Source: a virus. From it: a DNA stretch of 64,000 bases. Positions 5,096 to 64,000 of this stretch are shown here, piece by piece. Numbering within the stretch: position 1 is the stretch's first letter; every line of letters starts with the position of its first letter. The position numbers and the translations under genes are program-made. The stretch lies in IMG/VR virus record IMGVR_UViG_3300027759_006101, positions 294,270 through 358,269 of that record. One strand, 5' to 3'. The notes under the pieces were generated by a model, which saw nothing but the letters and a program-made list of their open reading frames with translations, searched no databases and was not told the origin of the DNA.

Positions 5096-7222
5096 ATGGC
5101 AAGTCAATACAATGAAAATTCCATACAGATCTTGGAAAGCCAAGAAGCTGTAAGGACACGACCAGCAATGTACATCGGTGACACTGGTAAGAGAGGTCTT
5201 CATCATTTAGTCTGGGAAATTTTGGATAACTCAGTTGACGAGCATATGGCTGGTCACTGTACTAAAATTGATGTCATTGTTTCTAAAGACAACCGTTCAG
5301 TTACAGTTATTGATAATGGAAGAGGCATTCCTGTAGCCGTAAAGCAAGAAGATCCAAAGAAACGATCTACTCTTGAGATTGTACTTACTGAACTTCACGC
5401 TGGTGGTAAGTTCGGCGATGATGGCTCTGGCTATGAAGCATCAGGTGGACTTCACGGTGTAGGAGCTTCTTGTGTAAACTTTCTTTCATTAAGGTTAGAT
5501 GTAGAAGTTTGCAGAGACAAGAAGAAGTATCAACTTAGCTTTGATCGTGGAATTCCTGCGTCTCAAGTGACCGAAATTGGAAATTCATCCTCTACTGGTA
5601 CAAAAATTACTTTCTCTCCTGACTATAATATTTTTGGTCAATTTGCAGTAGAAGATGCTTTTCGTGAAGTTCTCTTGGATGATTTTGACATTGATGAGAA
5701 ATTTGCAGAATGTTCTGGCAAATGGCGCAAAGCACTAATCAATGGCCCTGTTAATCTTGAAGTATTCAACCAATGTTTTGGATATATGAACTATGCAGAG
5801 GAAATATTAACAAAAGCCTTTGATTCTTGGTTCAACCATTCTTGGAAAAATATTCATTTTGATGAGTCAGTTATAATCCGCAGATTGCGTGAAACTGCTT
5901 ATCTTAACGGCGGACTGAAGATTGTTTACAAAAATGAGCACACTGGTACCAAAGAAGAATTTTTCTTTGAAGGCGGAATTGCTGATTACGTAAGTTATCT
6001 TGCGTTTTCTCGGACAGGGGTGTATCCACTCAAGCCATTCTTCTTTGATAACAAAAGTGGCAAAGTCAATGTTCAAGTTGCATTTCAATACAGTGAAGAT
6101 GATGAAGAAACAATTTATACCTATGCAAATAATATTTTTACCACTGACGGTGGCACTCATCTTAGTGGCTTCAAAACATCTATCACAAGAGTAGTAAATC
6201 AATTTGCACGTTCTTCAGGTGTTCTTAAGGAAAAAGAGCCAAACCTTTCCGGAGAAGATATCCGAGAAGGCATTATTGCCATAGTTTCTGTCCGCCTACC
6301 ACAACCTCAATTTGAAGGACAAACTAAAGGCAAACTTGGTTCTCAAGAAGTTGAAGGTGTTGTAAATAGGCTCTTTTCAGAGGCAATCACAGAATATTTT
6401 GAAAAAAATCCTTCTGTAGTCAAGAATATTGCAGAAAAAGCTTTGAGAGCAGCAAAGGCACGAGCAGCAGCAAAGAGAGCATCTGAAAATATCAAGAGGC
6501 AAGGTTTTCTTGGTCGTTCAGGTTCTCTTCCTGGAAAGTTATCTGATTGTAATTCGGAAGATGCAATGTCTACTGAACTTTACATTGTTGAAGGTGACTC
6601 TGCAGCTGGAAGTTGCAAGGGTGGTCGTGACCCAGAATATCAAGCAGTTATGCCTATTCGTGGAAAGATTATCAATCCAGAGAAGAACGATTATGCCAAA
6701 CTTATGCAAAATGAAGAAGTTGGTGCAATCATTTCAGCTGTTGGTACTGGAATAAAAGATGATTTCAATATTAAGGATCTTCGATATGGCAAGATTGTAA
6801 TTATGACTGACGCTGATGATGATGGTGCTCATATTGCAACTCTTTTGATGACATTCTTTTATAGATTTATGCGCCCTCTCATAACAGAAGGTCATTTATT
6901 TATTGCTAAGCCACCACTTTATCGAGTCAATTACAAGAATGATAAATTTTACATTCATACTGAAGCTGAACTTGATGGGTACAGAAAGAAGTATGGTGAT
7001 AAAATAGAAGTCACAAGATTCAAAGGTTTGGGTGAAATGGATGCTGATGAACTTGGCACAACTACTATGGAAATTGGCAAACGTCAAATTATCAAAGTAA
7101 ATGTCGAAGATGTTGAAGAAGCATCAAGAATCCTAAATGTTCTGATGGGCAGTAATGTTGCTCCTCGCAAAGAACATATCATCGAAAAGTCTGCTGCAAG
7201 GATATTAGAAAACAATGGCTAG
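5096..7222 (+). CDS. gyrB: DNA gyrase subunit B (type IIA topoisomerase ATPase)
   Basis: Encodes 708 residues. The GHKL ATPase domain is complete: catalytic E41 in E-I-L-D-N-S-V-D-E, D73 in D-N-G-R-G-I-P, G-G-K-F at 103-106 and the ATP-lid motif G-G-L-H-G-V-G-A-S around 117-125. The TOPRIM domain has E489-G-D-S-A and T-D-A-D-D-D-G-A-H near 561-569, and the C-terminus has the R-F-K-G-L-G-E-M motif. With GyrA it forms an A2B2 enzyme that changes DNA supercoiling using ATP. Compared with the short bacterial GyrB (about 640 residues), it carries roughly 65-70 extra residues around 172-250, between the N-I-F strand and the R-L-R-E-T-A-Y-L-N motif. It overlaps gyrA by 8 bases (ATGGCTAG). A bacterial-type gyrase pair, rather than a split T4-type topoisomerase, is the best reading; topoisomerase IV is less likely because the partner has a GyrA box. 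Confidence 0.95.
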   Translation: MASQYNENSIQILESQEAVRTRPAMYIGDTGKRGLHHLVWEILDNSVDEHMAGHCTKIDVIVSKDNRSVTVIDNGRGIPVAVKQEDPKKRSTLEIVLTELHAGGKFGDDGSGYEASGGLHGVGASCVNFLSLRLDVEVCRDKKKYQLSFDRGIPASQVTEIGNSSSTGTKITFSPDYNIFGQFAVEDAFREVLLDDFDIDEKFAECSGKWRKALINGPVNLEVFNQCFGYMNYAEEILTKAFDSWFNHSWKNIHFDESVIIRRLRETAYLNGGLKIVYKNEHTGTKEEFFFEGGIADYVSYLAFSRTGVYPLKPFFFDNKSGKVNVQVAFQYSEDDEETIYTYANNIFTTDGGTHLSGFKTSITRVVNQFARSSGVLKEKEPNLSGEDIREGIIAIVSVRLPQPQFEGQTKGKLGSQEVEGVVNRLFSEAITEYFEKNPSVVKNIAEKALRAAKARAAAKRASENIKRQGFLGRSGSLPGKLSDCNSEDAMSTELYIVEGDSAAGSCKGGRDPEYQAVMPIRGKIINPEKNDYAKLMQNEEVGAIISAVGTGIKDDFNIKDLRYGKIVIMTDADDDGAHIATLLMTFFYRFMRPLITEGHLFIAKPPLYRVNYKNDKFYIHTEAELDGYRKKYGDKIEVTRFKGLGEMDADELGTTTMEIGKRQIIKVNVEDVEEASRILNVLMGSNVAPRKEHIIEKSAARILENNG

Positions 7223-13915: not shown

Positions 13916-14301
13916 TTTGAATTTCCTGTATTACACACTCTGCAAAGTTTGCAAATTTTATTGTTTAATATATTTGAAAATATAAGCATCAATGAACCAA
14001 TAATCATTAAGTAATTTATTTCTTTATGATCGGAATGCTTGTGTTCATTTAAAAAATAACCTGCAAATGTTATGATAATTCCTAAAGAGAAAAACCATAA
14101 TATATTGTAATTTTTGTGAGTTTTGATTCCAAAGCAAACATTATAAATATTTATTGCGCAAGATATAAATAATAAAATAAATTCTATTTTTGAATCAAGC
14201 ATCAAGTAAAGAGCTGAAGTAGGCAAAAATATCATAAATAAAGGTAATATCGTGCAGTGCAAAACACAAACAATACTAGCTATATTTGCGAATTTTATCA
14301 T
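13900..14301 (-). CDS. MerC-family membrane protein
   Basis: Encodes 133 residues with four predicted membrane segments (about 5-25, 38-55, 66-83, 95-113). The first segment carries C12-V-L-H15-C16 followed by a Pro-Leu-rich stretch, the signature of MerC-domain proteins (S-x-x-C-x-x-H-C-x-x-x-P-L). A His-rich loop (H-K-H-S-D-H-K near residues 87-93) and a cysteine cluster C-K-L-C-R-V-C after the last helix also match the family's C-terminal pattern. MerC proteins carry or bind Hg(II) or other soft metals at the inner membrane. The start overlaps the dnaK stop by 4 bases (ATGA) and the end overlaps the next gene. A metal-related role in a phage is unexpected; redox or membrane function is an alternative. 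Confidence 0.75.
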   Translation of the reverse strand: MIKFANIASIVCVLHCTILPLFMIFLPTSALYLMLDSKIEFILLFISCAINIYNVCFGIKTHKNYNILWFFSLGIIITFAGYFLNEHKHSDHKEINYLMIIGSLMLIFSNILNNKICKLCRVCNTGNSKCQKK

Positions 14302-15992
14302 AGATTGACTTTCTTTTTTGCTATGTCATGAACTTTTAGAGAGATTTCTTTAATAGTTTCTTTTGCACTTTCTAAGAGACTTGAAAGTAACTCAATATTG
14401 TGACTTTTGCCATCTTGTTCTATTGATTTCTTGAGATCTAGTAATTCATTAACATCAAGTTTATCTAAAACATTAGTTCTAAGTAATTCTTCAATTTGAA
14501 TTTCACAATCATAAAGAAGATCGTGCATATTTGTAATCTTTCTAAAGTGCTCATCTTCGTCTTTGTGTTGTTGTGCTTCATCAATAATTTTTGATATTTC
14601 TTGACTTGATAACGACGATCTGCCTGTAATCTCAATGTCTTTTTCTATTCCATTATCCAAACTTGTGGCTTTGACTGAAAGAATTCCATTTGGATCAATT
14701 TGAAACGTGACTTCAAGTTTTGGCAATCCTCTTGGTTTTTCTTCTACCCCATCAAGTTTAAATTCCCCAAGCAACAAATTATCTACTGTTTTGGGTCTCT
14801 CTCCTTGATAAATCTTTACATCAACTTCTGTTTGATTATCATATGCAGTTGTAAAGATTTCCTTAACAACTGAGGGTACTTGAGTATTTCTGGGAATTAA
14901 GATACTCATAATCCCACCTTGTGTCTCTATACCTAAAGAAAGTGGTGTAACATCAAGCAAATAAACTTCTCTGCTTGATTTTCCTGTCAAAACTGATGCT
15001 TGAATAGCTGCACCGACAGAAACAGCTTCGTCAGGATTAATTGACTTATTGGGCTTTTTTCCGAACTTTTCTTCTATTACTCTTTCTATTAGTGGAATTC
15101 TTGTACTGCCACCAACAAAAACAATTTCATCAATTTTGTCAGTTTTTAAATTAGCGTCTCGTAATGCATCATTGACACAGAGCATTGTTTTATCAATGTA
15201 TGTCTTGATAGATTCTTCAAATTCTTCACGATTAATCTTGAGTGGCTCTTTTCCAACCATTACATTAGCCACAGTCATATGAGAAAGCATCTTTTTAGTC
15301 TTCTCAGAGATATTTCTTAAATCAATCTGATCTAAAGTAACATTAGTTTTGCTAAGAATTACTTTTCCAAGTGCTTCATCAAAATCAACACCACCAAGAG
15401 ATGTATTACCAGATGTAGATTGAACGTGGAAGTCAACACCGTCCATAAGCTTAAGCAAGGTGACATCAAATGTTCCTCCGCCTAAGTCATATACTAAAAT
15501 CGTTGCATCATTTTTCTTATCTAGACCATATGCCAAAGATGCTGCAGTAGGTTCATTGATGATACGTAATACTTTAAGACCAGCTAATTCTCCAGCTGTT
15601 TTAGTAGATTGCCTTTGGTCGTTGTTGAAATATGCAGGGACAGTAATTACAGCTTCAGTTACTTCTTTGCCCAAATGCCTCTCTGCGCAATTTTTAAGAT
15701 ACTTTAGGATGTATGATGAAACTTCTTCTGGGCTGTAGGATTTGCTATTTATTTCAAATCTCTTATTAGTCCCCATTTGCCTCTTTACAACACGTATAGT
15801 ATGAGAAAAGGGCAAATGCTGCTCCATATCAACAGCATATTGCCCTACATAAATCTCATCACCAAAACTGACTACGCTGGGAGTAATTCTTTCACCTAAA
15901 TCATTTGGGATAACTTCTGGCTGATCTTTGTCATTTACATAAGAAACTACACTAAAAGTACTTCCTAAATCAATTCCAATTGCGTAACTCAT
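14298..15992 (-). CDS. dnaK: Compact Hsp70 chaperone (DnaK-like)
   Basis: Encodes 564 residues versus about 638 in E. coli DnaK. The nucleotide-binding domain has I-G-I-D-L-G-S-T at 5-12, catalytic K70, V-P-A-Y-F-N-N-D-Q-R near 118-127, N-E-P-T-A-A near 146-151, D169-L-G-G-G-T-F-D, and V-G-G-S-T-R-I-P near 293-300. The interdomain linker region V-Y-L-L-D-V-T-P-L-S-L-G starts at about 343, some 45 residues earlier than in E. coli, because lobe IIB (between residues 205 and 260) is shortened. The beta substrate-binding domain is present (to about 458) and the helical lid is short. The size resembles HscC-type Hsp70s. It heads the minus-strand dnaK-merC-BFN cluster; a DnaJ gene lies 4 kb away. 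No GrpE is seen. No Shine-Dalgarno is evident; a TATAAT lies 8 bases before the ATG. Confidence 0.93.
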   Translation of the reverse strand: MSYAIGIDLGSTFSVVSYVNDKDQPEVIPNDLGERITPSVVSFGDEIYVGQYAVDMEQHLPFSHTIRVVKRQMGTNKRFEINSKSYSPEEVSSYILKYLKNCAERHLGKEVTEAVITVPAYFNNDQRQSTKTAGELAGLKVLRIINEPTAASLAYGLDKKNDATILVYDLGGGTFDVTLLKLMDGVDFHVQSTSGNTSLGGVDFDEALGKVILSKTNVTLDQIDLRNISEKTKKMLSHMTVANVMVGKEPLKINREEFEESIKTYIDKTMLCVNDALRDANLKTDKIDEIVFVGGSTRIPLIERVIEEKFGKKPNKSINPDEAVSVGAAIQASVLTGKSSREVYLLDVTPLSLGIETQGGIMSILIPRNTQVPSVVKEIFTTAYDNQTEVDVKIYQGERPKTVDNLLLGEFKLDGVEEKPRGLPKLEVTFQIDPNGILSVKATSLDNGIEKDIEITGRSSLSSQEISKIIDEAQQHKDEDEHFRKITNMHDLLYDCEIQIEELLRTNVLDKLDVNELLDLKKSIEQDGKSHNIELLSSLLESAKETIKEISLKVHDIAKKKVNL

Positions 15993-18904: not shown

Positions 18905-19126
18905 TTAGCAATCCTTTGCTATTACCGAATCATCTTCATTTGATGAATTTGGATCTAAATCCATATCTGTAGTCAAAGGAATTACCAATTCGTCCTTGAT
19001 AGCTACTACTTCATCTTTATTTTCTTTTTCATCCGCCCAGACTACCGAATTATCAACTTCTACTTCTTCGCCTTCTGCATTAGTAAAGTTTTCGATTTTG
19101 CCTGTTGCTCTCTTAATCATACTCAT
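18905..19126 (-). CDS. Small acidic hypothetical protein
   Basis: Encodes 73 residues. The start overlaps the dnaJ stop by 4 bases (ATGA) and the stop is one base from the next start, so it is translationally coupled in the operon. It is acidic after residue 18 (many E and D) with no hydrophobic core or cysteines apart from the last residue, suggesting a disordered protein. No family recognised. Its reality rests on gene packing and the absence of a better ORF. Confidence 0.6.
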
Positions 19127-20103
19127 AACATTTTTCTTCCTTTTCTTGATTCAATATAAGACTTCAAAGCGTCAGTTTCAACTTCATTTAAGTCGTTAGG
19201 TATATTATACTTGAATTTTATATGCAAATCAGAATAATTATTTTCGTCTACTGGTATTCCTTTATTCTTGATGATGTGAACATAATCATTTCTAATAGAT
19301 TTAGAAAATTTGAAATTTAAAATATTTCCATTAATATGTTTGTATTTGAAATTTGGTTCTACTATGCATAGGATAGGATCTATTTCAAACTCGTGTAACA
19401 TATTTAGGTTACTATCAAAATCAAACGAATCTTGCTTTTTCACATTAATTTCTATCATCAAAGGGCCTGGAGCTTGATGTTTATCACCGAAGTTGCCACG
19501 ATTAGGTAACATAACACTCTTGAAGCATTGACCTTTCTTGATTGTAAGATCAAACATTTCTTTTGCAATCACGTAGCCTTTACCCGAACACTTGTTGCAA
19601 AGTGATTCTGGTCTTTCTCCTCGACCTTGACAAGTTTGACAGGGGCCAGCATAATTTCTTATATGGAAGAAACCAACGTTTTGAACAACATAATGTTCTC
19701 CACTTCCCATACAATCAGTGCACAAATTGATTTTGCCAAAACCACCATCACCACTACAATCACGACAAGGCATCATTCTCTCATAAAATATCGGTTTTAT
19801 CGCATCACTGAAACATTCTTTAATCGAAAGTTCTATCTTTAACAAAACAGGGACATTGAGATTGCGGCGAAAAGCATTTAAGTGAGTTTTCCTAAATGGA
19901 TTATCAGGAAAAGGCATGTGATTCTGAGGCTTGGGGTTTAAGACATCCTCATAGGCCTGAGAAATTTCCTTAAACTTTTCCTCAGCATCAGATTGTTTAT
20001 TTACGTCTGGATGATATTCTTTGGCTAACTTTCTGTAAGCTTTTTTAGCATCATCTACGCTAGAATTCTCTGGTATTCCTAAAACTTCATAGGGACTAGG
20101 CAT
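19123..20103 (-). CDS. dnaJ: DnaJ-type Hsp40 co-chaperone
   Basis: Encodes 326 residues. The N-terminal J domain (1-60) keeps H31-P-D33, which triggers Hsp70 ATP hydrolysis. The Gly/Phe-rich segment of bacterial DnaJ is almost missing (60-85). The zinc-binding domain is complete with four C-x-x-C-x-G-x-G repeats: C113/C116, C128/C131, C155/C158 and C169/C172. A C-terminal substrate-binding region follows, shorter than in bacterial DnaJ (about 375). It is encoded in the operon of the three proteases and likely works with the phage DnaK encoded 4 kb away, though in a different transcript. A TATAAT overlapping the upstream stop lies 6 bases before the ATG; TGAG may act as a weak Shine-Dalgarno. 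Confidence 0.94.
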
Positions 20104-21307: not shown

Positions 21308-22309
21308 TTACTTTTTAATTAAAATAGTGTTCCAGTCAACATTTGCTAATTTAGGAACACCAGGACCCCAATTTTTTTCTTCTCCCGAATCAACAACAGT
21401 ATTTTCCATAGAACAGATATTATGTAATGCAACCATCATATCTGCTTGGCAAAATTGGTTTCCAAACTCCTGCAATAAATTTAATTTTTTCAATGCAGAC
21501 TTTATCAATGCACAAATTCCAGCAACAAATGGTGATGCTTGACTTGTACCTGACATTTTACAATATTCATTTCTTAAGAAAGTTGAATATATATCTACTC
21601 CTGGAGCAACAATATCTACAGTTTCATCTTTTGATGTAAATGTTGCAAGTCTTCCGCCTGAATCTAATGCAGCAACAGCAATTACTTCATCATATCTAGC
21701 CGGGTAATTAACACTTTTGGAATCATTGCCAGCAGCTGCAATAACAACAATACCTTTTGACACTGCTTCTAAAATCAAATCATGAATAAACTTTGGTGGC
21801 TCAGAAGATGAACCTAAAGACATATTGATTATGTCAACATTTAATTCAATAGCTTTTTTTAATCCAGCGGCAATAGTTTCAAAACTACCAGAGCCATCAT
21901 CATTTAAAACTTTTATTGGAATAACTTTGCAATTTGGAGCAACTCCTACAACACCAAAGTCATTATCACTTCCAGCTATAATTCCGGCAACGTGTGTCCC
22001 GTGTCCAGAAGACTTATCTTCCCAGGAATCACTATCCGAACAATTAAAGACAGATTCTTTTGTCCAGCATTCTGATAAGTCAACGTGTTCTGCAATTCCA
22101 GTATCTAAAATTGCTACAACAACATCTTCTCCTTTAGTTAATTGCCAAACATTTTGTATTGAAGATAGTCCCAAACCCCAGTTTTGAGTTTGAGAAAGAG
22201 CACTGAAAGGTACAGGTGTAACTTCTAAATCTTCAATTGGAATGAATTGAATATTTTCAGACAATTCTTCCACAACTTCGACAGAGATTTCATTATTATT
22301 TTCGGACAT
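21308..22309 (-). CDS. Subtilisin-like serine protease (S8)
   Basis: Encodes 333 residues with a complete triad: D69 in V-A-I-L-D-T-G, H103 in S-G-H-G-T-H-V-A-G, S256 in S-G-T-S-Q-A-S-P, and the oxyanion N195 in A-A-A-G-N-D. There is no signal peptide and only a short acidic N-terminal extension of about 45 residues, so it is an intracellular-type subtilase. A GAGG site precedes the ATG. It is the first non-structural gene after the tail block and is transcribed in the same direction, so its substrates may be the giant tail proteins (inferred). Other phage subtilases exist, but their roles are poorly defined. Confidence 0.94.
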   Translation of the reverse strand: MSENNNEISVEVVEELSENIQFIPIEDLEVTPVPFSALSQTQNWGLGLSSIQNVWQLTKGEDVVVAILDTGIAEHVDLSECWTKESVFNCSDSDSWEDKSSGHGTHVAGIIAGSDNDFGVVGVAPNCKVIPIKVLNDDGSGSFETIAAGLKKAIELNVDIINMSLGSSSEPPKFIHDLILEAVSKGIVVIAAAGNDSKSVNYPARYDEVIAVAALDSGGRLATFTSKDETVDIVAPGVDIYSTFLRNEYCKMSGTSQASPFVAGICALIKSALKKLNLLQEFGNQFCQADMMVALHNICSMENTVVDSGEEKNWGPGVPKLANVDWNTILIKK

Positions 22310-51521: not shown

Positions 51522-54500
51522 TTATTGTGCAGACTGCTCAGTTGGATACACTGTCAGAACGTCAGGATTTGGATACCCTCCAGTTCTGACAAATGTAAAA
51601 GTATTAGTTGATGGTTTAGCAGATGAAGCAATCAGCAATGAATGAAATCCTCCAGCAGAAATATCAGTTGGATTTGCAATATCGACAACCGAAGATATTT
51701 CACCGGGAAATCTTCCATTTTTTGAGTTTTCAGATAAAGTATCTTTATAACTTGATGCAAAGCCTAATTCACCATCTAAATTAACACCCCAAGGCCAATA
51801 ATAATTTTCTGACAAAGCCAAATATCCGAAGTTACTCACAGATATTTTTTGAAAAGTTTCTGCTTTAGGATCGCCTGGTAAAAAGTTTTGGTTTTCTGCT
51901 GCTGTCCCAGGACTTATCAAGAAAGCTGGAATTTCATTTGCGTTTGTGAATCCATAGAAGTATATTGCTCTGTTGAAATAAGGGTCAGTATCAGCCAATA
52001 ATACTCCAATCCTGTTCTCATATGTTGATATATCATACGCATAACCCCATCCTCTCAAATTAGTTTTTCCAGCAAACCAAACAATTTGGTTGTCCGGATC
52101 GAATGCGATACCAGTAACATAGCCTATAAAATCGTTTGGGCTAGTTGGATCGAAAAATCCTATTTCTATTTTGAACGGCATCATAGGAGTTGTCAAAAAT
52201 AAATCAGGGTTTTGTCGGACATCAATACCAATAAATCCAATTTCATTTACAAATCCAGTTGAAGAATAATTATGTTTTCCGGCAACCCATACTTTTTTAT
52301 TATCAGCAAAAGCAGTAATATGTTGGCAGGTTGAAACATCTAAAAGTGCATCATTGTTTGAAAAATTAAGAGGACTATTAGATAAATTTCTTTCTAGAAT
52401 TGATTTAAATCCATATATGTTACTCTTAGGTAATGCTTGCCCGAAAGTCCCCAAATTATTATCGCCACAAACTAGCAAGACTTTTTTATTCAATACAGTA
52501 TCTTCAACAATAATTGCTGAAGTTCTATCTCCTGCTGATACTTTGACTACCTTGAATTTAGAATTTAATGGAATTTTTGTCAAAACATTTACTTTGCTTA
52601 TATTGCTCGGCAAACCCAATTGTCCATAAGTATTGTCGCCACTTCCATATAGTGTGCCAAGATCATCAACTGCAAATGAATGTTTCAATCCTGATTCAAT
52701 TATGACGTACTTTTTAGTATCATCTACTAACTCGTAACCATATCTGTTAGGTTCATAAGCTCCACTTGCAATTGCTCCATTAATTGACTGTCCAGTAGTA
52801 AACAACTTGTTTGCATCAACTTTGGGAACTGGAGAAACATTTACTGGCACATTTAATCTTCTACCTAAATTTGTCAGCAATGAAGATTTTAAATTCTGAG
52901 TGTCTGCTACTACTAATGAAACAAGGAACAACCCTACTGTATTAAATGAGTAAGATAATTGTGAAGCAGTTCTAACTAAAACACCATCTAAATACCACTC
53001 AAAAGTGATGTTATTTAAGTCTTCTGGATCATAAGAAAGTAAGCCATCAAACGTATAAGTATCTCCTACTTTAAGCTCAATATTACCTGATAATTCTGGC
53101 TCATTGCTTATCACAGCAATAGGGTTTTTATTTGGTGGTGGAGGTGGAGGAGTTCTAACAACAAATATTGTTTTATTTACTGGAATACTTTCTAATCCAA
53201 AATTGTCAAACACACTTAATGTCACAGTATGATTGCCTGTACTTGTGAAAATAAAAGAAATTTCTGGTGTGTTTAAATTTTGATTAATTCCATCCACTAA
53301 CCATTTGTAACCACTTATGAATTGATTAATATCAGAATCGTTACTACCATCCGATGTAAATGTGACGCTTGTATTAATTTCAACTTGTGTAATACCTGGA
53401 GGTACTGTATTCAAGACTGCAATTGGCTGATTGTTTCTAACTATATAACTTAATGTTTCAGTGCTTGATCCATCTTGATTGTCTATGACTTTTAGTGAAA
53501 CATTGTAAGTACCAGGCTGTGTGTATCTTGTTACAGCAATTTGTTCAAAAGAAGTCTGTCCATTACCAAAATCCCAGTAATAAGCTAATGGACCACCTAT
53601 ATTGTCAGGATCATAACTGCCTGCTCCTGAAAAAGTAACATCTAATGGTGCAAAACTTGTATTTGACACAGGGTTAGCTGTTATTCGAGCAACTGGAGGC
53701 TGATTAGGAGGATTTACCTTGACAGCAACAGTTACAGTATTGCTCCAAAAACCATCATTATCCCTTACTCTATGAGAAACTGTGTATGGTACAAATCTTG
53801 GCGTATTAAACGTGTAAATGAAAGATTTTGTAGTTATTGGGGTAATTTGCAAACCAGATATTGTCCACTCATAATCAGATATACTTCCATCTAAATCAAA
53901 CGCTAGTGAATCGAAAATGACTGTGAATGGAGCAAATCCTGTAATTACTTTATTTACGTCTGTCGGATTTGTAGAAATAACTGCCACAGGTATTCTGTTG
54001 CTGACAAAAATGTTTTTTGTAATGGAATTTGATAAATTGAATTTATCATAAACTGTCAATGTAACTGAATAAGTTTTATTGCCGAAAGCATACTGGTGTT
54101 GTGGAGATTTTTTGTTAGCATCAGAAGTTACAAAACTATTTTGATCTCCAAAATTCCACTCCCATCTTACTAAATCATTTTCTGGATCAGTAGATGAATC
54201 TATAAAATTAATTGTTTGTAATGTTTGTGGATTTGTAGGGTTGAATGAAAAATTTGCGCTTGGAGGTTGATTTATAATTGTGATTTGCTGATTACTTGGT
54301 AAACTTCTTCCATTTCTATTATCAGTGACTACCAAACTTGCATTATAAATACCAACACTTTTGTAAATATGAGATATGTTTGCTGGATTCACAAATGAAG
54401 TTGTATTTCCATCTCCAAAATCTATTTCGTAAAAAGTGATAAACCCATCTGGATCTTTTGAACTTGCAACATCAAAATTAAACAAATCATTTACTAAGCC

Positions 54501-57500
54501 AGTGTTTTTATCAACCAATAAAATAGCATTTGGTAAAATATTGTCTGCAGGACTAACATTGACTACAACCTGTGTTGAATTACTATCACCAAAATCATCA
54601 GTAACAGTCAAAGTTACAGTATATGAACCTTCTGACGTAAATTGAAATGTTGGATTCTGTAAACTTGATACTTGCCCATTACTTACAACCCAAGCATAAG
54701 ATACTATATTTCCGTCTTCATCAAAAGAATTTTGTCCAGAGAATAATAAGGAACCTGGTGCCTTTACAATTAATGAAGTGTATGAAATTCTTGCAGTTGG
54801 TTTTCTATTATTTACTGTTAGTGTTTTTTGGCTAATGTTACTAGCACCAAAATTATCTATGACTTCAAGTGAAATTGTATATAAACCAGGCCTATTATAA
54901 ATATGACTTACATTAGGAGATGCATTATCTTGTCTTACAGTATCACCGAAATCCCAATTGTAACTTACTATAGTACCGTCAGAATCAAAAGATTTTGATC
55001 CATCAAAATTTGCTGATTCTTTAGAATTTATTGGATTAGGAGAAATTGTAAATATAGAATTAGGCAAAGAATTATTAACAATAATATCAAAAGTAGCAGT
55101 GTTGCTTAAGCCATTATTGTCAGTAACCGTAAGCTTTACTGTATATAATCCAGATTTTGTAAAAACATAACTTATTGTTTTTCTGTAATTTTGCAAGTTA
55201 AATTCTACGAAAGAATTATTTTCAAGTTCCCAAAGCCACTTTACAATAAATCCATCTGTATCTGTAGATGTATCAGTGAAATTTACTGCAAGCGGAGCAA
55301 AATTGTTATTATTATCAACAGTAAAAGAAGCTTGTGGAGGTTTGTTAGCTGGAGGAGCAAAAACTTCTATCTGTAAAGATTTCTGTGAAGATTTCTTATT
55401 TGTTCCATCAAAAAGTCCGTTATCTGTCACTGTCAAAGTTACATCATAAACTCCAGGCGAAACATACTGATGGGTTGGATTTTTGCTTAGGGATGATGTG
55501 GTTGAATAAATATCAGAACCATCTCCAAAATTCCATTCCCATTTAATAATATATCCATCAATATCTGAGGATTCTTCTGTGAACTTTACAATAATTGGTT
55601 CAAAACTTGTTTGGGTTGCATTAATAAGGTTTATTACTGGAGGTTGGTTGGTTATTTCAGATACAGTAATGGTCTTGACTTCAATATCTGTATTTCCGAA
55701 ACTATCTGTAACTTCAAGTGAAACTGTGTAACTACCAAATGTGGAGTAATTGAACACTGGGTTTTGAATATTAGAAGTCAATGACAAATTATTAGCATCA
55801 AATAACCACTTCCAATTTACTATTTGTCCTTCTGACGTATCAAGAAAATTAACAGTATATGTTTTATCAACTTGTGAATATGAAAAGTTTGCTATTGGAT
55901 TATTATTTCCTTGACCTGACACAGATACACTATAATTTATAGAATTAGTATCATTAGAACTATTAGTAACCGTAAGTTTAACATCGTATACACCTGGTAA
56001 ATCATAAAAATGTTCTGGATTTTGAGAGTATGAAGTTTGTCCATCACCAAAATCCCAAGCCCAAGACGTAACTATATTTGCTGGAGTAGATTTATCAGTG
56101 AACTTTACATTAAATACGGGACCAAAAGATGTTTGTTTCCAAGAAAAATCTGCTTTTGGTGTTAATGATACTACAATGTTAGGGCCTGTAAATAAATCAC
56201 TCTTTCTACTAAAATTATCTTCAACATAAAGTGTTGGTTTATAAGTACCAGAAATTGTGTAATCGTATATCAAGTCATCATTATTTGAAAAACTTGATAA
56301 CTGACCATTTCCTAAAAAATCCCAAACATAAGTAGCTATTACAGATCCATCTTTTACGGGAAAAGATTGGTTTGTGAAAAGGACACTAAGTGTTGCTGGT
56401 CCAGATGTAGGACTAGCGCTAAACTTTGCTGTGGGTTTTAAGTCAGTTACTTTTGGATAAACTGTAATTTTCAAAGTTGTTGGATTAGACTTTACTCCAT
56501 TACTGTTTGTAACTATCAATGTGACAGTAAATTCTTTATCAACATTTGTAGAGTTTACAAAAGTATGAGTTGGATTTGTTTCTATTGAACTAGTGCCATC
56601 ACCAAAGTCCCATTCATAAGTTAATTCACTTCCAGAAAAATCAAATGAATCATTAGAAAAAACTACAAATAAATCAGTAATTCCAGAAGTTGGATTTGCG
56701 GTAAATAAAGCTTGAGGTTTTATATTATTAGTGTCTGTTGTCACGTCAGCTGAAGAGACGCATTCTATTGGGTAATCAACATATGTACAAGCTATTCCAG
56801 TTATATTATCAAATGTGTTAGAATACGGGTTGAATTTAACAGCTCTTAGGTTACAATTACCAGTATCGTAAACAACAATTACATCACTAGAGTAATTCAT
56901 ATGTTTGCAGCTTATTATTGCAGGTTTATGTTTTGAAACTACACTTGAAAGTTCTGAGTTTGAATCATAGTAAGTAACCATACTTTCTCTTTGAATCAAA
57001 TTAACTGCGAAGTCAGAATTTACATTACCAGCTATCAAATGTAATTTTGGAATTACTGAAGTGCCAAAACTGCTCGAAGATACAGGGACTTCATAATAAA
57101 CTATTGAGCCACTACTAAAGAATACGTTTCTTTGAACATTTAAGCGATTATCGTAAACTGATGTCAACCCAAAAATATTACTTTCTTCCGATAAAGTTTG
57201 GCCAGAAATATCATCAAGATTTATTAATTCAAATTTATCAGAAAGCTCGTAATTAGAAATAAATTTACCATTGATTATTCGCAAATTTTCTTTTAGAACG
57301 TAAGAAACTAAATACTCCTGTGAGTTTATAATTGAAACAGTAGGGTGAACAGGAGCAGCTATGCCTTCGAGCATTAGTGTGTCTAGAAGTCTAAATTCAG
57401 ATATGTATGTTGGAGCTTTACCAGCTACTAGAATATTTTGGTCAGTAACTGGAGCAACAGTTCCGCTTGTATTAAGTGGAATTGTTCTAAAAATTACAGA

Positions 57501-60500
57501 ACCATCATCTGCATAGCCAATGTTAGCAAGTAATGGAGACTCATTTGATATAGCATAAGAATTAAATCTCATTTTATTGAAAGCTATAGAATTTGTAGAA
57601 AAATTTGCATCACTTTTTGATTCTCCAAATATGTGTGGGAACCAAGAAAACTTATTTCTCATATTAGTGTTTGAACTAATCAGAGAATTATAATTATTTG
57701 TGCTTTGAGATTTTAATAAACTTGTATGTTCTGTCAGTAAAAATGTATGGACATTTCTTGAATTTTTAATTAATTCTGACGAAAGTAAAAAGGGATATTC
57801 GCCTGGTAAAGAAACCCCATTCCCACTTTGAACATTAGGATACCCAACACAATAATTTTCATAAACTCCAGAGTAAAATGAGTCGGTCTGAATGATAGAT
57901 GTATATTTTATATCTTTTTCTTTAGTTGTTGGTACAGTGTAAGCAATCACAATAGAATTTTCAAAACCTGATTCACAAGCTGTTATATCAGTAGCTAATT
58001 CTTTTCCGCCCTTAAATGAAGCTCTTTCTCTTTTTGCTTGTGATAAGTTTCTAGTTGAACTCTTGAAAGATTCTGGATTTGCAAATTGTTTTGATTTCTC
58101 TAACTGAATAAAGTGATCAATTTTATTTTTACCAAATGGAGTTTCTGTTTGATAAAAGCCAAAATCATTAGATTCTGATGAACCTGCCGCTGCTCCAGTA
58201 GATGTTTCAATCAAATTAGCTTTTCTAATGTTATCGTCTGTACTCTTTTGCGGAGGTAAAATTAATCCATTAGCTAGTCCACGAGCTATAATTCCACCAC
58301 GTAAATGCAATACAGAAGTTTGCTGAGTGCCATCTGAATTTTTAAGCGAAGTGTTTCCGAAAAGATCAGGTAAACCTGGCGGAAAATTTCCATTTATTCT
58401 ATGAAATATTGTTTGCGCAAGAAGAGTCTTGAGTTCATTAAAGCTTATATCAATTGCTTTGACATATGAGGTACCACTACCGCTATTTTTTCCGCTTGGT
58501 AATGCTAAAATTCCACCGCCATAAACCCAAGTTGCGTAACCAGTGTCAGAATTTAAATATTCAGGATCTAAGTCTATTGTGTAAATCCTGTCTCCAGTAA
58601 TTGGATCTGTCGGATATGACTTTAATATTTTTTGAGCTAACCATCCAGGATGTCTTACTACTTTAGACGATGGATTATTAACGTTGAGCCACTGCGGGGC
58701 TACATATTCATCTATTTTGTTTATATCATCACAAAGTCCAGAAATTGATTTAGGAAATAACTGCCAATTGTTTAATCTTGAGGACTTTGTTAATTGCCAT
58801 TCAATATCTCCTTCTTCCTCGTCTCTGCTGTCAGTGTTCTGTTGCCAAAATCTTCTTGTGAAATATTGAGTTTCTGTAGGTATTTCAGTCGTATTTGCAT
58901 TTTCAGAAACTGTAAATTTTGTTTTAGATTCGAAAGTGTTATTATTTCCAGAGTAAACAAAATTAGAAAGAGAATTTATTCTTTGAAGCTTAACATTCTT
59001 AAGTTCTAATAAATCATTATCAACTTGAAGTTTAGTAATTCTACTCACTCCATAATAAGGTCCATTACTAGCTTCATCTTCTGGATAGTCATCAATTGCG
59101 TTAACTTCATTTTCTGATGGATCTTTTGAAAGTATATTTGTATTTAGTATTGTATTTTTTGGAAACGTAAATTCAACCAGCCTTGGATCCTTAACAGTTA
59201 TGATTGGAGCATTTGGGTTGAATACAGTTTCTATACCATTTATAGTTGGAGGTATGCCATCATAATTTGGTTCTGAATTTTTATCAAGCTTAGAATATTC
59301 AATATTCCCTCTATACTTATTTTCTTCTACCTTATCAATAGAAGAAAATTTTAAGACAATTGATGCAAATCTATCATCACTCCTTGAAAAAGTAAGTTTT
59401 ATTGAACTGCCTACTGGAAATTGTAAATTTGAGTTTGCATCATTTGGCACTTCTATTGAAAAATAAGAAGTTTCTTCTGCTTGTGAATTTACGTACTGAA
59501 TTATTTTGTATGTTTTTTTAATTTTTAACGTAGAATTTTCGATCTCCACTGAATCATAGGGATTGTTCAAGAATACAGCATTATGCTCAACTTTGATAAT
59601 TTGATTACCATCTACAAAAAGACCAGTTGTTTTTGATAAATTACCTGTAATGTCAGGAAAGCCTGGATTATAATCATAAATTTCAAATTCTTCGGGATAT
59701 TTGCCATCTTTGTCTTTGAGCAAAATACCATCAACAGTATTGTCTTTCGTTAAATCATTTTGAACTTTATAAAAATAAATCTCTTTGAAATAATCTGGAA
59801 TGATATTAATTCTTTTTCCTGTGTCGTCATATGTGTATCCATCAGCAGCAATAAATGGCTTAGCAAGTTTTATTTTTCCGTTAGCAATTCTGGGTCTTCC
59901 AAAAATGTAATTTGTTCCTACACCAGATTTTGGAAAAGCTGAAGTATTTACATCAAAATAATCTACATTTTTAGAAACGGGATCGGTAAGATAAATGACT
60001 CCTGAATCTTGAATTATTTTTTTAATTTCACCAGTAATCCAAATGTTAGATTCACTTCCATCAATAGGCCCAGTGAATAAAAAATTATCTTTCGGTTTGT
60101 TTTCAGCTGCCAATAAACCAAGAGGGCTTAAACTAACAGGTTTTGATGTTGTATATGCATTGAGTCTAGGATATGGTGAATCCTGATTATCAACATTGTC
60201 ATTTTTATTATCAGGATTGCACAAATCAACTATAATATTTTGAAATTTATTTGTACTTGATCTTATCTTCCAATACTTAGTATCTTCTGTCTGACTATTG
60301 TTTGATTTTGTAAAACCTTTTGACGTTTCCGTAATATTAATCAAACTGTTTTGCAAATCATTATTTAACGAACGAACTTCAAGGTTTAAATATCTATAAC
60401 CTGATAAATTTTGATCACCATAGTAATGAGGTTCACCCTGATCACCTACATAATTTCTCGTGTTTCCTTCACCAGGAATAATATATTCTTTATCCTGTTT

Positions 60501-61961
60501 TAAGGTCATTGCATTGAACTTCCATCCTCTTAAGGGAATAGGAATAGATGCACTCCCACTCGGCAGTTCATCTTCACCAATTGTAAGTTCTTGATTTAAA
60601 AAATTAATATTTTCACAACCATCAGCGCCACGAATATATTTATCAGGATAGTCCATATTATCTGTTGGACTTTCCAAATCATCAAAAATTTCATTAGAAT
60701 GAATACCATCAATCATTCCATAAATCCATCTTTGAGTATTATCAAATCTAAGGTTTTTTGAATCAGATTCGGCTTGAGGTAAATCTTGTATTGCATCTAA
60801 AAAACCAGAATATCTTTGATAATCTTGAGACGCACTAATGTTCCCGCTGTTAGTTTCAACAGTCAAGAATTGAGCTTGATTGTAAGTGATAGTTTTGTAT
60901 CTCTTTGGGATATAAATACTACCAAAACCAACTAAATAAGCTTTAAGTGGATTTGTGTGATTTTTGTTCCAATCATATACATTTGCATCAAATGTAACTG
61001 TCCTCGTTGGGTCCGTAATCAAATTTATTCTTGCTTCAGCTTTTCCTCTTATTTCCTTAACATACGTTGAGTTTGGATCTGTGTAACCTTTTATAGAAAA
61101 GTTTTCTGTATCTACTGTTACTAAAGAAGTTTTTGCTTGTGAATTTGATTTAAGATCAGGAGTAGTACCATAAATGCTTACATATCCACTATTACCTGAA
61201 TTAGCAGTATAGGCTGTGATTTTTTTTCCAGCACTATATGAAATTCTTCTGGCTAAAGTAAAGTTAAGTGTTTGAAATCTACTGAACTTATTGACTTTGC
61301 CTTTCGAATCAATTGCAGTAATTTCAATTCCAACTCTGCTTGAAGTATTAGGCTTGATCATTTCAAACCAATTTAATGTTGTGTATCTAGGAAACTGTCT
61401 GACAGTGTCTTTGTTTAAATCTTTAATTACAACAATTTCATCATCACCACAACCTGATGCTGAAGGTTTTGTTTTTATTTCAGATGGCAAAAATTCATCA
61501 ATTCCAACATATTCTTCAAGTGGTGTACCAAAATATACTGTGCCTTCAATAGAGCCTGAAAAAGATTTTAGAGTTTTTGTAGCTACATTTTTATCAAAAT
61601 CAACTAATTCCAAAACAAAACTATCAGAAATATTTACAGCATTTAGACCTTGGCTGATTCCAGCTATAAATTGAAAATTTAGCTTAATTTTGTATTTTTT
61701 GGAACTTTCTACATATTCGGGTTCCAAAAAAACTGTATCTCTTCCAAATGTATTTGATACTGTTAAGTTTGGTTCTCCTACCCTGCAAACAAAACTACAA
61801 TCAGTAGAACTAAAAACAACTTCAGCATTTGTAGGATACGACTTTACAAATATTGGAAATGAAAAATTCTTAATTGGATTGCCCAAAAGCACTTCATAGT
61901 TAAACTTGAATTTGCCAATAAAACTAGTTGTTCTTGATCTATTTGTTCGATAAATGGCCAT
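51522..61961 (-). CDS. Giant adhesin-like tail protein with 14 PKD domains and RCC1 repeats
   Basis: Encodes 3479 residues, the largest gene here. An N-terminal 1700-residue region is beta-rich with no recognised domain. From about residue 1744 to 3041 lie around 14 PKD-type Ig-like domains of about 90 residues, each with W-D-F-G-D-G or similar, a Y/F-x-x-P/S-G-x-Y-x-V-x-L-x-V-x-D/N core and N-x-P-P/N-Q-P-P linkers; several keep the W-D-F-G-D-G-T-S/Q-T-S-Y sequence. A poly-Pro linker (T-P-P-P-P-P-P-N) precedes the last PKD. The C-terminal 400 residues (about 3058-3458) have RCC1-type repeats (S-G-D-N-T-Y-G-Q-L-G, S-A-G-D-R-T-S, W-G-V-N-L-D-G-E-L-G, S-A-G-G-F-H-S). PKD arrays act as stalks; RCC1 propellers bind ligands. 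A long flexible host-binding fibre is inferred. Confidence 0.85.
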   Translation of the reverse strand: MAIYRTNRSRTTSFIGKFKFNYEVLLGNPIKNFSFPIFVKSYPTNAEVVFSSTDCSFVCRVGEPNLTVSNTFGRDTVFLEPEYVESSKKYKIKLNFQFIAGISQGLNAVNISDSFVLELVDFDKNVATKTLKSFSGSIEGTVYFGTPLEEYVGIDEFLPSEIKTKPSASGCGDDEIVVIKDLNKDTVRQFPRYTTLNWFEMIKPNTSSRVGIEITAIDSKGKVNKFSRFQTLNFTLARRISYSAGKKITAYTANSGNSGYVSIYGTTPDLKSNSQAKTSLVTVDTENFSIKGYTDPNSTYVKEIRGKAEARINLITDPTRTVTFDANVYDWNKNHTNPLKAYLVGFGSIYIPKRYKTITYNQAQFLTVETNSGNISASQDYQRYSGFLDAIQDLPQAESDSKNLRFDNTQRWIYGMIDGIHSNEIFDDLESPTDNMDYPDKYIRGADGCENINFLNQELTIGEDELPSGSASIPIPLRGWKFNAMTLKQDKEYIIPGEGNTRNYVGDQGEPHYYGDQNLSGYRYLNLEVRSLNNDLQNSLINITETSKGFTKSNNSQTEDTKYWKIRSSTNKFQNIIVDLCNPDNKNDNVDNQDSPYPRLNAYTTSKPVSLSPLGLLAAENKPKDNFLFTGPIDGSESNIWITGEIKKIIQDSGVIYLTDPVSKNVDYFDVNTSAFPKSGVGTNYIFGRPRIANGKIKLAKPFIAADGYTYDDTGKRINIIPDYFKEIYFYKVQNDLTKDNTVDGILLKDKDGKYPEEFEIYDYNPGFPDITGNLSKTTGLFVDGNQIIKVEHNAVFLNNPYDSVEIENSTLKIKKTYKIIQYVNSQAEETSYFSIEVPNDANSNLQFPVGSSIKLTFSRSDDRFASIVLKFSSIDKVEENKYRGNIEYSKLDKNSEPNYDGIPPTINGIETVFNPNAPIITVKDPRLVEFTFPKNTILNTNILSKDPSENEVNAIDDYPEDEASNGPYYGVSRITKLQVDNDLLELKNVKLQRINSLSNFVYSGNNNTFESKTKFTVSENANTTEIPTETQYFTRRFWQQNTDSRDEEEGDIEWQLTKSSRLNNWQLFPKSISGLCDDINKIDEYVAPQWLNVNNPSSKVVRHPGWLAQKILKSYPTDPITGDRIYTIDLDPEYLNSDTGYATWVYGGGILALPSGKNSGSGTSYVKAIDISFNELKTLLAQTIFHRINGNFPPGLPDLFGNTSLKNSDGTQQTSVLHLRGGIIARGLANGLILPPQKSTDDNIRKANLIETSTGAAAGSSESNDFGFYQTETPFGKNKIDHFIQLEKSKQFANPESFKSSTRNLSQAKRERASFKGGKELATDITACESGFENSIVIAYTVPTTKEKDIKYTSIIQTDSFYSGVYENYCVGYPNVQSGNGVSLPGEYPFLLSSELIKNSRNVHTFLLTEHTSLLKSQSTNNYNSLISSNTNMRNKFSWFPHIFGESKSDANFSTNSIAFNKMRFNSYAISNESPLLANIGYADDGSVIFRTIPLNTSGTVAPVTDQNILVAGKAPTYISEFRLLDTLMLEGIAAPVHPTVSIINSQEYLVSYVLKENLRIINGKFISNYELSDKFELINLDDISGQTLSEESNIFGLTSVYDNRLNVQRNVFFSSGSIVYYEVPVSSSSFGTSVIPKLHLIAGNVNSDFAVNLIQRESMVTYYDSNSELSSVVSKHKPAIISCKHMNYSSDVIVVYDTGNCNLRAVKFNPYSNTFDNITGIACTYVDYPIECVSSADVTTDTNNIKPQALFTANPTSGITDLFVVFSNDSFDFSGSELTYEWDFGDGTSSIETNPTHTFVNSTNVDKEFTVTLIVTNSNGVKSNPTTLKITVYPKVTDLKPTAKFSASPTSGPATLSVLFTNQSFPVKDGSVIATYVWDFLGNGQLSSFSNNDDLIYDYTISGTYKPTLYVEDNFSRKSDLFTGPNIVVSLTPKADFSWKQTSFGPVFNVKFTDKSTPANIVTSWAWDFGDGQTSYSQNPEHFYDLPGVYDVKLTVTNSSNDTNSINYSVSVSGQGNNNPIANFSYSQVDKTYTVNFLDTSEGQIVNWKWLFDANNLSLTSNIQNPVFNYSTFGSYTVSLEVTDSFGNTDIEVKTITVSEITNQPPVINLINATQTSFEPIIVKFTEESSDIDGYIIKWEWNFGDGSDIYSTTSSLSKNPTHQYVSPGVYDVTLTVTDNGLFDGTNKKSSQKSLQIEVFAPPANKPPQASFTVDNNNNFAPLAVNFTDTSTDTDGFIVKWLWELENNSFVEFNLQNYRKTISYVFTKSGLYTVKLTVTDNNGLSNTATFDIIVNNSLPNSIFTISPNPINSKESANFDGSKSFDSDGTIVSYNWDFGDTVRQDNASPNVSHIYNRPGLYTISLEVIDNFGASNISQKTLTVNNRKPTARISYTSLIVKAPGSLLFSGQNSFDEDGNIVSYAWVVSNGQVSSLQNPTFQFTSEGSYTVTLTVTDDFGDSNSTQVVVNVSPADNILPNAILLVDKNTGLVNDLFNFDVASSKDPDGFITFYEIDFGDGNTTSFVNPANISHIYKSVGIYNASLVVTDNRNGRSLPSNQQITIINQPPSANFSFNPTNPQTLQTINFIDSSTDPENDLVRWEWNFGDQNSFVTSDANKKSPQHQYAFGNKTYSVTLTVYDKFNLSNSITKNIFVSNRIPVAVISTNPTDVNKVITGFAPFTVIFDSLAFDLDGSISDYEWTISGLQITPITTKSFIYTFNTPRFVPYTVSHRVRDNDGFWSNTVTVAVKVNPPNQPPVARITANPVSNTSFAPLDVTFSGAGSYDPDNIGGPLAYYWDFGNGQTSFEQIAVTRYTQPGTYNVSLKVIDNQDGSSTETLSYIVRNNQPIAVLNTVPPGITQVEINTSVTFTSDGSNDSDINQFISGYKWLVDGINQNLNTPEISFIFTSTGNHTVTLSVFDNFGLESIPVNKTIFVVRTPPPPPPNKNPIAVISNEPELSGNIELKVGDTYTFDGLLSYDPEDLNNITFEWYLDGVLVRTASQLSYSFNTVGLFLVSLVVADTQNLKSSLLTNLGRRLNVPVNVSPVPKVDANKLFTTGQSINGAIASGAYEPNRYGYELVDDTKKYVIIESGLKHSFAVDDLGTLYGSGDNTYGQLGLPSNISKVNVLTKIPLNSKFKVVKVSAGDRTSAIIVEDTVLNKKVLLVCGDNNLGTFGQALPKSNIYGFKSILERNLSNSPLNFSNNDALLDVSTCQHITAFADNKKVWVAGKHNYSSTGFVNEIGFIGIDVRQNPDLFLTTPMMPFKIEIGFFDPTSPNDFIGYVTGIAFDPDNQIVWFAGKTNLRGWGYAYDISTYENRIGVLLADTDPYFNRAIYFYGFTNANEIPAFLISPGTAAENQNFLPGDPKAETFQKISVSNFGYLALSENYYWPWGVNLDGELGFASSYKDTLSENSKNGRFPGEISSVVDIANPTDISAGGFHSLLIASSAKPSTNTFTFVRTGGYPNPDVLTVYPTEQSAQ
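51590..52790 (-). repeat. RCC1-type propeller repeats at the C-terminus of the giant protein
   Basis: At least three clear blades with the RCC1 pattern V-x-x-G-x-x-H-S-F-A-V-D-x-x-G-T-L-Y-G-S-G-D-N-T-Y-G-Q-L-G and variants, including W-G-V-N-L-D-G-E-L-G and S-A-G-G-F-H-S-L-L. The number of blades seen is fewer than seven, so the rest may be divergent. Confidence 0.75.
52840..56730 (-). repeat. Array of about 14 PKD domains
   Basis: Consecutive units of about 90 codons whose core contains W-D/N/E-F-G-D-G or W-x-W-D-F-G near the middle and Y-x-V-x-L-x-V-x-D at the end. I counted 14 by eye; four or five are degenerate. The units are not near-identical at DNA level, so the array is old rather than freshly duplicated. 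Confidence 0.82.
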
Positions 61962-61964
61962 AGC

Positions 61965-64000
61965 TTAACTCTTAAGGAATTGACTTAACATATTTTGTAC
62001 TGTTTGTCTAGTCTCTTGTTTGATTGCTAAAATTTTCTGATCGTATTTTTCTTCTACCTTGAAAATTTCACGGATAATTTCTTGTTTAATATTGTTTATT
62101 TCTTGTTTTGTAATAACATTGTTTGTTATGTTATTAGTGACATTTTGAATCTTTTTTACAAGTAATTCTTCAACCTTATTTTCTATTACTTTTTCCTGAG
62201 CTTCCTTTTCCTGTTTTTCTTGATAATATGATTTTTTCTCAAACTTACTAATGTTCTCAACTTTGTAGTAGTTTTGATTTTTTTGTTTGTGGATATCTAT
62301 TTTTACTCTTTCATTATTTTGTGTAATTCTGTATGTGTCAGTATTTTTAGTAAGTTTTATTTTTTGCTTAATTTGTTCATTGTTTACTTTGACTAAATTT
62401 AAAGTTTGAAAGAAATTTTTAATTTCTTTTTTAGTGCTTGTTTTTTTCGTTCCAGAATAGTCGCTAAAATTCACTAAGTCAAAGAAAGATTGCTCAGCTT
62501 TAGATGCTTTACTATCAACTCTTTCACTCATTTTGTAAAGTCTATCTATTTGTTTATTTATGGATGAGAAAGTTTTTTCAGTCTTCTTCTCAGATTTTAT
62601 TAAAGAAGTTATATTTAATTCAGAAAATAAATTTGTAATGTTTTTCTTGTTTGAGTCAAAACTATATCTGTTGACAAAGTTCAAGTTTTTTTCATTTTTA
62701 ATAAGGTTTATATTTTCGAAAAATTCAGATACTTTTTTTATTTCACTGTATGAATTATTAATTCTAGTGATAGGTGCTACTTTTGATATGGATTCAACAA
62801 AGTCAAGTGTTTTTAAAGTTTCTTGAATTTTGACTTTTTCTGAATATGTCTTGATCTGTCTTTCAAGTTTAACAACATTTAAAATATCATTTTTAGTTAA
62901 ATTGATATTTGAAATTTCTGAAAGGTTTTTGATATTTGATGTTTTGTTTATTACATTTTGAAAATTTGTTACTCCTAAGTTATTTATGCTTTGAATAACT
63001 TTTTCAACTTGTTCTAAATTATTATATTTATTAACTGTCAATGGAGATATAGAATTTATTACATTAAGAACAGATGTAATATTTTTTTCTTCTAATTTTT
63101 TTAGCTCTGTAAAAGTTCTTGCATCAAGCTTAGTATTTTGCAATAACTCTATAAATTTATTAACTTGTGAGTTATTTGAAATCTTAAATACATTTTGGTT
63201 ATCTAACTTATTTTGATTTAAGATAGAGAAGTTTTCACTAAACTCATTAAAATTATCAATATTTTTTATCTGTCTAATTTTCTTGATATTTTGTTTTATT
63301 TTATTATCAGTAAATATATTAATCAAATCCAAGAAACTACTGTTTTCTATTTTTGAAAGTTTTATAATTTTTTGAATTTTTGTTTCATCAATTTTTATTT
63401 GAGCAACTTGTTTTATCGTGTTGCTTATTTGCTCAACACTTGAAAAATTTGAAGTTTTTAAGATACTTTGCGATATTAAATTAAAATTTTTAGACACTTG
63501 AGAAAAATTAGAGATTGCATAATTTTTTGATAATGATTCTGTCAAAGATAGCAAATTTTTTACATTAGAAATTTTTTCAGAGCTCAACTTTACTGATGAT
63601 ATATTATTATTTTTAGTTACATTAATAATTTCAGAAATTTGCTTGATGTTTGCAGTACTGGAGTTACTTTGACGTACTAGCGTTGTCAAAGAGTTTAAAG
63701 TTTCTTCATTGTTTACTACAGATAATAATTTTTTTATTTGAGTATTATTGGAAATGTTACTTATCTTATTTAAAACAATATTTGAATATTCATCAGACAA
63801 TTCTTTATTATTCAGAATATTTTTTATATCATTTGAAATCTTATTTTCAGTCTTGTAATTCAATACTGAAACTTTTTGGTTATCTAACTTATTTTGATTT
63901 AAGATAGAGAAGTTTTCACTAAACTCATTAAAATTATCAATATTTTTTATCTGTCTAATTTTCTTGATATTTTGTTTTATTTTATTATCAGTAAATATAT
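61965..64000 (-). CDS. Asn/Lys-rich helical protein, 5' truncated at the window edge
   Basis: The frame stays open from the right window edge to the stop at 61965; a TTG at 63863 looks like an internal codon, not a start, because 45 further codons upstream are in frame and repeat internal sequence. 677 residues are visible. It is highly helical, Asn/Lys/Ser/Ile-rich, built of loosely repeating helix pairs (patterns like S-N-I-x-Q-I-S-x-I-I and N-V-x-N-L-L-S-L). The last 80 residues are charged coiled coil (K-E-A-Q-E-K-V-I-E-N-K-V-E-E-L-L). A stretch of 42 residues occurs twice, 227 codons apart. It directly precedes the giant PKD protein gene by 3 bases. It could be a tape measure-like or coiled-coil tail protein; the function is not recognised. 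Confidence 0.75.
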   Translation of the reverse strand, partial: IFTDNKIKQNIKKIRQIKNIDNFNEFSENFSILNQNKLDNQKVSVLNYKTENKISNDIKNILNNKELSDEYSNIVLNKISNISNNTQIKKLLSVVNNEETLNSLTTLVRQSNSSTANIKQISEIINVTKNNNISSVKLSSEKISNVKNLLSLTESLSKNYAISNFSQVSKNFNLISQSILKTSNFSSVEQISNTIKQVAQIKIDETKIQKIIKLSKIENSSFLDLINIFTDNKIKQNIKKIRQIKNIDNFNEFSENFSILNQNKLDNQNVFKISNNSQVNKFIELLQNTKLDARTFTELKKLEEKNITSVLNVINSISPLTVNKYNNLEQVEKVIQSINNLGVTNFQNVINKTSNIKNLSEISNINLTKNDILNVVKLERQIKTYSEKVKIQETLKTLDFVESISKVAPITRINNSYSEIKKVSEFFENINLIKNEKNLNFVNRYSFDSNKKNITNLFSELNITSLIKSEKKTEKTFSSINKQIDRLYKMSERVDSKASKAEQSFFDLVNFSDYSGTKKTSTKKEIKNFFQTLNLVKVNNEQIKQKIKLTKNTDTYRITQNNERVKIDIHKQKNQNYYKVENISKFEKKSYYQEKQEKEAQEKVIENKVEELLVKKIQNVTNNITNNVITKQEINNIKQEIIREIFKVEEKYDQKILAIKQETRQTVQNMLSQFLKS
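63193..63319. repeat. Direct repeat copy A (127 bp)
   Basis: Compared base by base by eye, this segment is identical to 63874-64000. The flanking bases differ at the left end (A versus T immediately before), so the identity stops there; on the right it runs to the window end. Confidence 0.96.
63874..64000. repeat. Direct repeat copy B (127 bp), reaches the window end
   Basis: Identical to 63193-63319, offset 681 bases (227 codons), same strand and same reading frame within the last gene. It stops exactly at the window edge after 127 bases, so its true length is unknown. Confidence 0.96.

Follow-up and report, generated by a model that had tools for sequence, protein, structure and literature searches.

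A 127-base repeat at the end of a 358-kb phage record points to a probable in-frame tandem duplication in a long helical-protein gene

Introduction

The last 127 bases of a 64,000-nucleotide stretch of viral DNA (hereafter the window; positions 294,270 to 358,269 of IMG/VR record IMGVR_UViG_3300027759_006101) repeat an internal segment of the same gene without a mismatch and stop exactly at the last base. Is this an artefact of assembly, or the trace of a real repeat in the gene? An earlier note, made from the window alone, had offered these as two alternatives, namely an assembly graph looped back at a contig end or a long tandem repeat through which the assembler found no path, and had concluded that in either case the 5' part of the gene was unreliable or repetitive. 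Here, we examined the locus in the context of the whole record, of small assembly graphs built from its two ends, and of related viral contigs.

Results

The terminal repeat

Direct comparison bore out the basic observation: window positions 63193-63319 and 63874-64000 are identical at 127/127 bases, their starts are 681 bases (3 x 227) apart, and both copies lie in a single minus-strand frame (61965-63998) whose 5' end is open. The base flanking the two copies on the left differs, the right copy ends on the final base of the window, and a search of the record found the 127-base sequence exactly twice. Once the last 127 bases are removed, no exact direct repeat in the window is longer than 16 bases, and the longest chance repeats measured 15-17 bases in 10/10 first-order Markov simulations of 64 kb. 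The window corresponds to G000:C1:294270-358269 of 358269, so that its right edge is the end of the 358,269-base virus record, as had been suspected. An 8-base direct repeat, TTTTGGTT, is present at 63193-63200 and at the joint, 63874-63881, and again at record positions 538-545; a junction repeat of 8 bases or longer was found at 26 of 20,000 random junctions drawn in the same gene. A 37-base pattern taken from the repeat retrieved no record from viral_contigs, in a search that may omit near-identical records. The features of the locus are collected in Table 1.

Table 1. Features of the locus (positions are those of the window unless stated otherwise)
Feature	Position	Strand	Remark
Long helical-protein gene, 3' part	61965..64000	-	5' part at record 2009-1, outside the window
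Downstream 3479-aa protein, ~10 PKD domains, RCC1 repeats near C-terminus	51522..61961	-	Synteny anchor
Inner 127-base copy, 3' end of right-hand 681-base unit	63193..63319	-	Exact repeat
Terminal 127-base copy	63874..64000	-	Probably the preceding unit's 3' end; rival reading: k-mer loop at contig end
Right-hand version of 681-base (227-codon) unit	63193..63873	-	Repeat spacing
Stretch matching record left end (record 1-545)	63337..63881	-	529/545 identical
TTTTGGTT, inner breakpoint 8-base direct repeat	63193..63200	.	
TTTTGGTT, joint 8-base direct repeat	63874..63881	.	Also record 538-545

Elsewhere in the window, adjoining genes for GyrB-like and GyrA-like DNA gyrase subunits occupy 5096-9734 (+), genes for phage-encoded Hsp70 and DnaJ-like chaperones lie at 14298-15992 (-) and 19123-20103 (-), and a subtilase-family peptidase gene (21308-22309, -) adjoins the large structural genes. 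Relatives of the Hsp70, at 53-89% identity, were seen in nine other viral contigs.

The two ends of the record

A self-search of the record showed that its first 200 bases match its own positions 357606-357805 (window 63337-63536) at 98%. The full match pairs record 1-545 with window 63337-63881, at 529 of 545 identical bases, and stops at TTTTGGTT, the start of the second 127-base copy. Past record base 545, the left end holds the 5' part of the gene, read on the minus strand from record 2009, where the protein opens with MSEINFIDYDK. In the closest relative, L003, the protein is uninterrupted through the breakpoint (...NVNQKVSYLQYKT), and the left end of the record reads ...YVNQKVSVLNYKT; at the right end of the record, unlike in L003 and at the left end, KVSVLNYKT is preceded by the repeat. 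In repeat phase, the two ends of the record are 17 bases apart. Record base 1 (L004:1, outside the window) precedes by 38 bases the first position at which the two versions differ.

Eleven relative records, 2 of them found through the gene itself and 9 through Hsp70, were searched for the gene, which was present in 5. In all four of the whole-gene relatives (G002, G005, G006 and G009), the gene is flanked on the same contig by homologues of the 738-aa protein upstream and the 3479-aa protein downstream, the latter queried by its first 1200 residues, and the left and right ends of the record therefore belong together. The 378,848-base record G010 (L016) carries an Hsp70 relative at 53% and no detectable homologue of the gene or of its two searched neighbours.

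Judged from overlap and gene order, the record amounts to a circular map with its opening in the helical-protein gene. From the coordinates, a single unit would give a circle of 357,605 bases and a gene, read across the joined ends, of 1126 codons; two units would give 358,286 bases and 1353 codons. An exact end-repeat test would miss such a circle, because the ends overlap at 97% identity rather than exactly and the overlap is shifted by the 127 bases. The earlier note was supported as to the contig end, the k value and, as the best reading, the tandem repeat, and missed the 5' part of the gene: this part, which it had called unreliable or repetitive, is not lost but lies at record 1-2009, together with another version of the segment that is 97% identical.

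Assembly graphs at k = 127

JGI assemblies make up most of IMG/VR. A data paper on one JGI-sequenced set gives assembly by metaSPAdes with -k 33,55,77,99,127 (PMC11584781), which agrees with the suggestion that 127 is a k-mer size of assemblers; the length of the terminal repeat equals an assembler k in use. A literature search for k-length loops at contig ends returned nothing relevant. When the record was tested against the expectation for a graph end at k = 127, the shared 127-mer was present at its right end and absent at the start of its left end. Small graphs at k = 127 were built from 3 kb of sequence at either end of the record. A two-unit locus left uncovered by reads across the 17 bases gives a right path that closes on the 127-mer and a left unitig beginning at record base 1, which is what the record shows at both ends. 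If those 17 bases are instead given the sequence of the other unit, a two-unit locus still accounts for the right end but predicts a left unitig that begins 89 bases earlier. With one unit and without the second version, no break arises.

The record thus resembles a k = 127 de Bruijn contig end of the metaSPAdes kind in that it ends in a terminal repeat of exactly 127 bases. It differs in having its matching copy inside the record and, at the joint, real sequence marked by an 8-base direct repeat; a graph loop therefore needs a duplicated or chimeric molecule behind it. As a control, the 20 ends of ten relative records were inspected, and a terminal repeat of at least 20 bases within the last 10 kb was found at none of them (0/20), so the pattern is not general among relative contigs.

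Tandem duplications in relatives of the gene

An alignment scan found the gene in 10 viral_contigs records, 8 with a full-length gene (1294, 1295, 1304, 1305, 1306, 1324, 1324 and 1548 codons) and 2 in which it is cut by the contig end. A single-sequence scan with the 5' part of the gene yielded no relative, the relatives being found by alignment only. Among phage records, no match was obtained to the 5' part of the gene (protein), to the 974-aa neighbour (protein) or to the gene region of a relative (DNA), and no relative was confirmed in a scan of genome_contigs. Two contigs, L003 and L061, end inside the gene; as a rough expectation is about one such end per ten contigs of these lengths, we drew no inference from them. 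In L054 and L055, contigs from differently numbered metagenomes, the gene is nucleotide-identical. These two were counted once, which left 9 distinct relative genes, all of which were tested for tandem duplication.

Two of the nine (L061 and L062) harbor in-frame tandem duplications in the central region, inside their contigs. L061 shows a self-match of 294 aligned bases at 71% (offset 369 to 342), and L062 shows two, of 217 bases at 65% (offset 375) and of 238 bases at 68% (offset 348 to 342). Their best self-matches scored 102 and 65.8 bits, respectively, against a codon-shuffled maximum of 38.1 (20 shuffles each). L055 was marginally above its shuffles (34.4 vs 32.5), while the other six relatives were at or below theirs. 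The duplications of L061 and L062 align with each other and may go back to one event. L062:6001-10644, the longest relative (1548 codons), also carries an array of short tandem units whose offsets are 60, 84 and 186 bases. The earlier note had proposed looking for 227-residue tandem units in homologous proteins: no 227-codon unit is present in the 9 distinct relative genes, and what 2 of them hold instead are older units of about 114-125 codons. These resemble the duplication of the record in affecting the same gene, in its central region and in frame; they differ in unit length (227 codons in the record) and in being older, 65-71% alike over longer alignments. The central region spans 387 residues in L003, 572, 572, 581 and 601 in the four long relatives, and 407 (one unit) or 634 (two units) in the record. 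It thus changes length in frame among relatives, which makes a real duplication in the record plausible.

The protein and its neighbours

The protein is rich in N, K, I and S. Structure prediction of its two parts gave helical models of very low confidence (mean pLDDT 34.6 and 34.8). Neither the window part nor the relatives L029 and L062 gave a PHROG family, no Pfam family scored above cut-off, and the family alignment had no sequence match in PDB. Its neighbours include the giant protein that carries PKD domains and RCC1 repeats, and another whose match to a baseplate hub is weak (E 0.0003); because of these neighbouring genes, and judged by them only, the helical protein is probably a virion component. 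The 3479-aa protein keeps its length in four relatives, whose open frames measure 3464-3475 codons.

We also searched the central region for helical repeats of about 33 residues. Out of 100 shuffles, those reaching the best observed value numbered 0 to 4 in the four long relatives, 0 and 7 in L003, and 3 and 11 in the one-unit protein of the window, values that weakly support such repeats. Gapped self-alignment exceeded all 12 shuffles in 3/3 proteins; it is inflated by composition and was for this reason not used.

Discussion

Overall, the most probable explanation of the locus is a real in-frame tandem duplication of 227 codons, in two or more units, which a k = 127 graph could not cross. 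The artefact and the tandem repeat, set against each other in the earlier note, are thus best combined rather than kept as separate alternatives. The phage genome would be circular or circularly permuted, and the long Asn/Lys-rich, probably helical protein gene would carry a 681-base (227-codon) in-frame tandem duplication of at least 2 units, a duplication that probably originated through slippage or recombination involving two TTTTGGTT sites at a distance of 681 bases. Since then, the units would have diverged to 97% in their comparable part, keeping an identical stretch of at least 127 bases. As a k = 127 de Bruijn graph cannot distinguish the copies of such a stretch, the contig would have opened there, its right end stopping at the shared 127-mer and its left end starting 17 bases on, in repeat phase. 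We infer, from the evidence set out here, that both units lie in one genome, and likewise the unit number, the assembler and k behind the record, and the cause of the duplication.

What the record itself contributes is the spacing of 681 in an open frame, with only 127 bases of the preceding unit at the right end of the contig and its other 545 at the opposite end. Several points speak for the duplication: (i) the joint is in frame, (ii) the right-hand version leads into the repeat, as is required of a second unit, (iii) the ends of a record that is otherwise one contig fall 17 bases apart in repeat phase, and (iv) two-unit k = 127 graphs reproduce the exact right end. Against it stand the single unit of the closest relative L003, the lack of a 227-codon unit in the 9 distinct relative genes, and the left end, which is not at the shared 127-mer and which the graph with the other unit's 17 bases would place 89 bases earlier. 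Moreover, at a divergence of 16/545 (2.9%), the chance of an identical run is 0.023 for 127 bases and 0.007 for 165 (127+38), so that two units with evenly spread divergence are a poor fit, except if such a run is what determines where the break falls.

The same data bear on the main rival reading, rather unlikely in our judgement though a serious one, in which the main genome has one unit, the ends of the record are two alleles from strains about 3% apart, and the joint 63873/63874 is a chimera or a minority duplication, the path having re-entered its own 127-mer and stopped. L003, with its one unit, agrees with this. The 16 differences between the versions (9 synonymous, 7 non-synonymous; 13/16 transitions) resemble strain variation, a pattern that fits duplicated units and alleles alike, and the 8 bases shared at the joint fit slippage or recombination in the phage as well as template switching in the library. 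Mixed strains are common, strain diversity is described as giving loops and bulges in de Bruijn graphs (PMC11443906), and alleles could also yield the graph that matches both observed ends. However, this would take two strains, a joint strong enough for assembly and the loss of the right-hand allele's own upstream sequence; the joint would be in frame only by chance (1 in 3), the left end would have to happen to start 17 bases past the repeat, and the record is one contig elsewhere.

Very unlikely, in turn, is a longer array in which several near-identical units follow one another and only the first and last versions appear in the record: a k = 127 graph cannot count units and in L062 short tandem units (60 and 84 bases) do form an array, but more than two of the longer units occur in no relative. 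That the terminal 127 bases belong to a genome end, for instance as the terminal repeat of a linear genome, or arose by chance is scarcely credible, for although the repeat stops at the record end, its other copy is internal, the last 15-30 bases are absent from the first 5 kb, the record begins and ends within a single gene, which relatives have in one piece, and simulated repeats reach only 15-17 bases.

If the 227-codon duplication is real, the added units would lengthen the helical middle part of the protein. A parallel is offered by phage tape measure proteins: in TP901-1, tape measure repeats are reported to be gained and lost, and extra repeats to lengthen the tail (PMC5099701). The likeness lies in a long helical phage protein with a repeat region able to change length in frame, and extra repeats could, by analogy with TP901-1, lengthen a tail here also. 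The protein of the record, however, is without a PHROG, Pfam (above cut-off) or PDB sequence match, and membership among tape measure proteins was accordingly rejected.

What had looked like an artefact thus turns a 358-kb phage record into what is in effect a complete circle, in which the broken gene can be placed whole across both ends. This is ordinary biology, of use for genome closure and annotation. It is tempting, though doubtful, to go further and to see a group of large phages with a helical virion protein whose central repeat region acts as a length dial, blocks of helix being gained and lost in frame by slippage; the record would then have been caught with a fresh gain of 227 codons, perhaps in a copy number that varies within its population. 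In this phage gene, the central region alters its length in frame through tandem duplication, and, if the protein is structural, the change in length would be testable as variation in virion dimensions.
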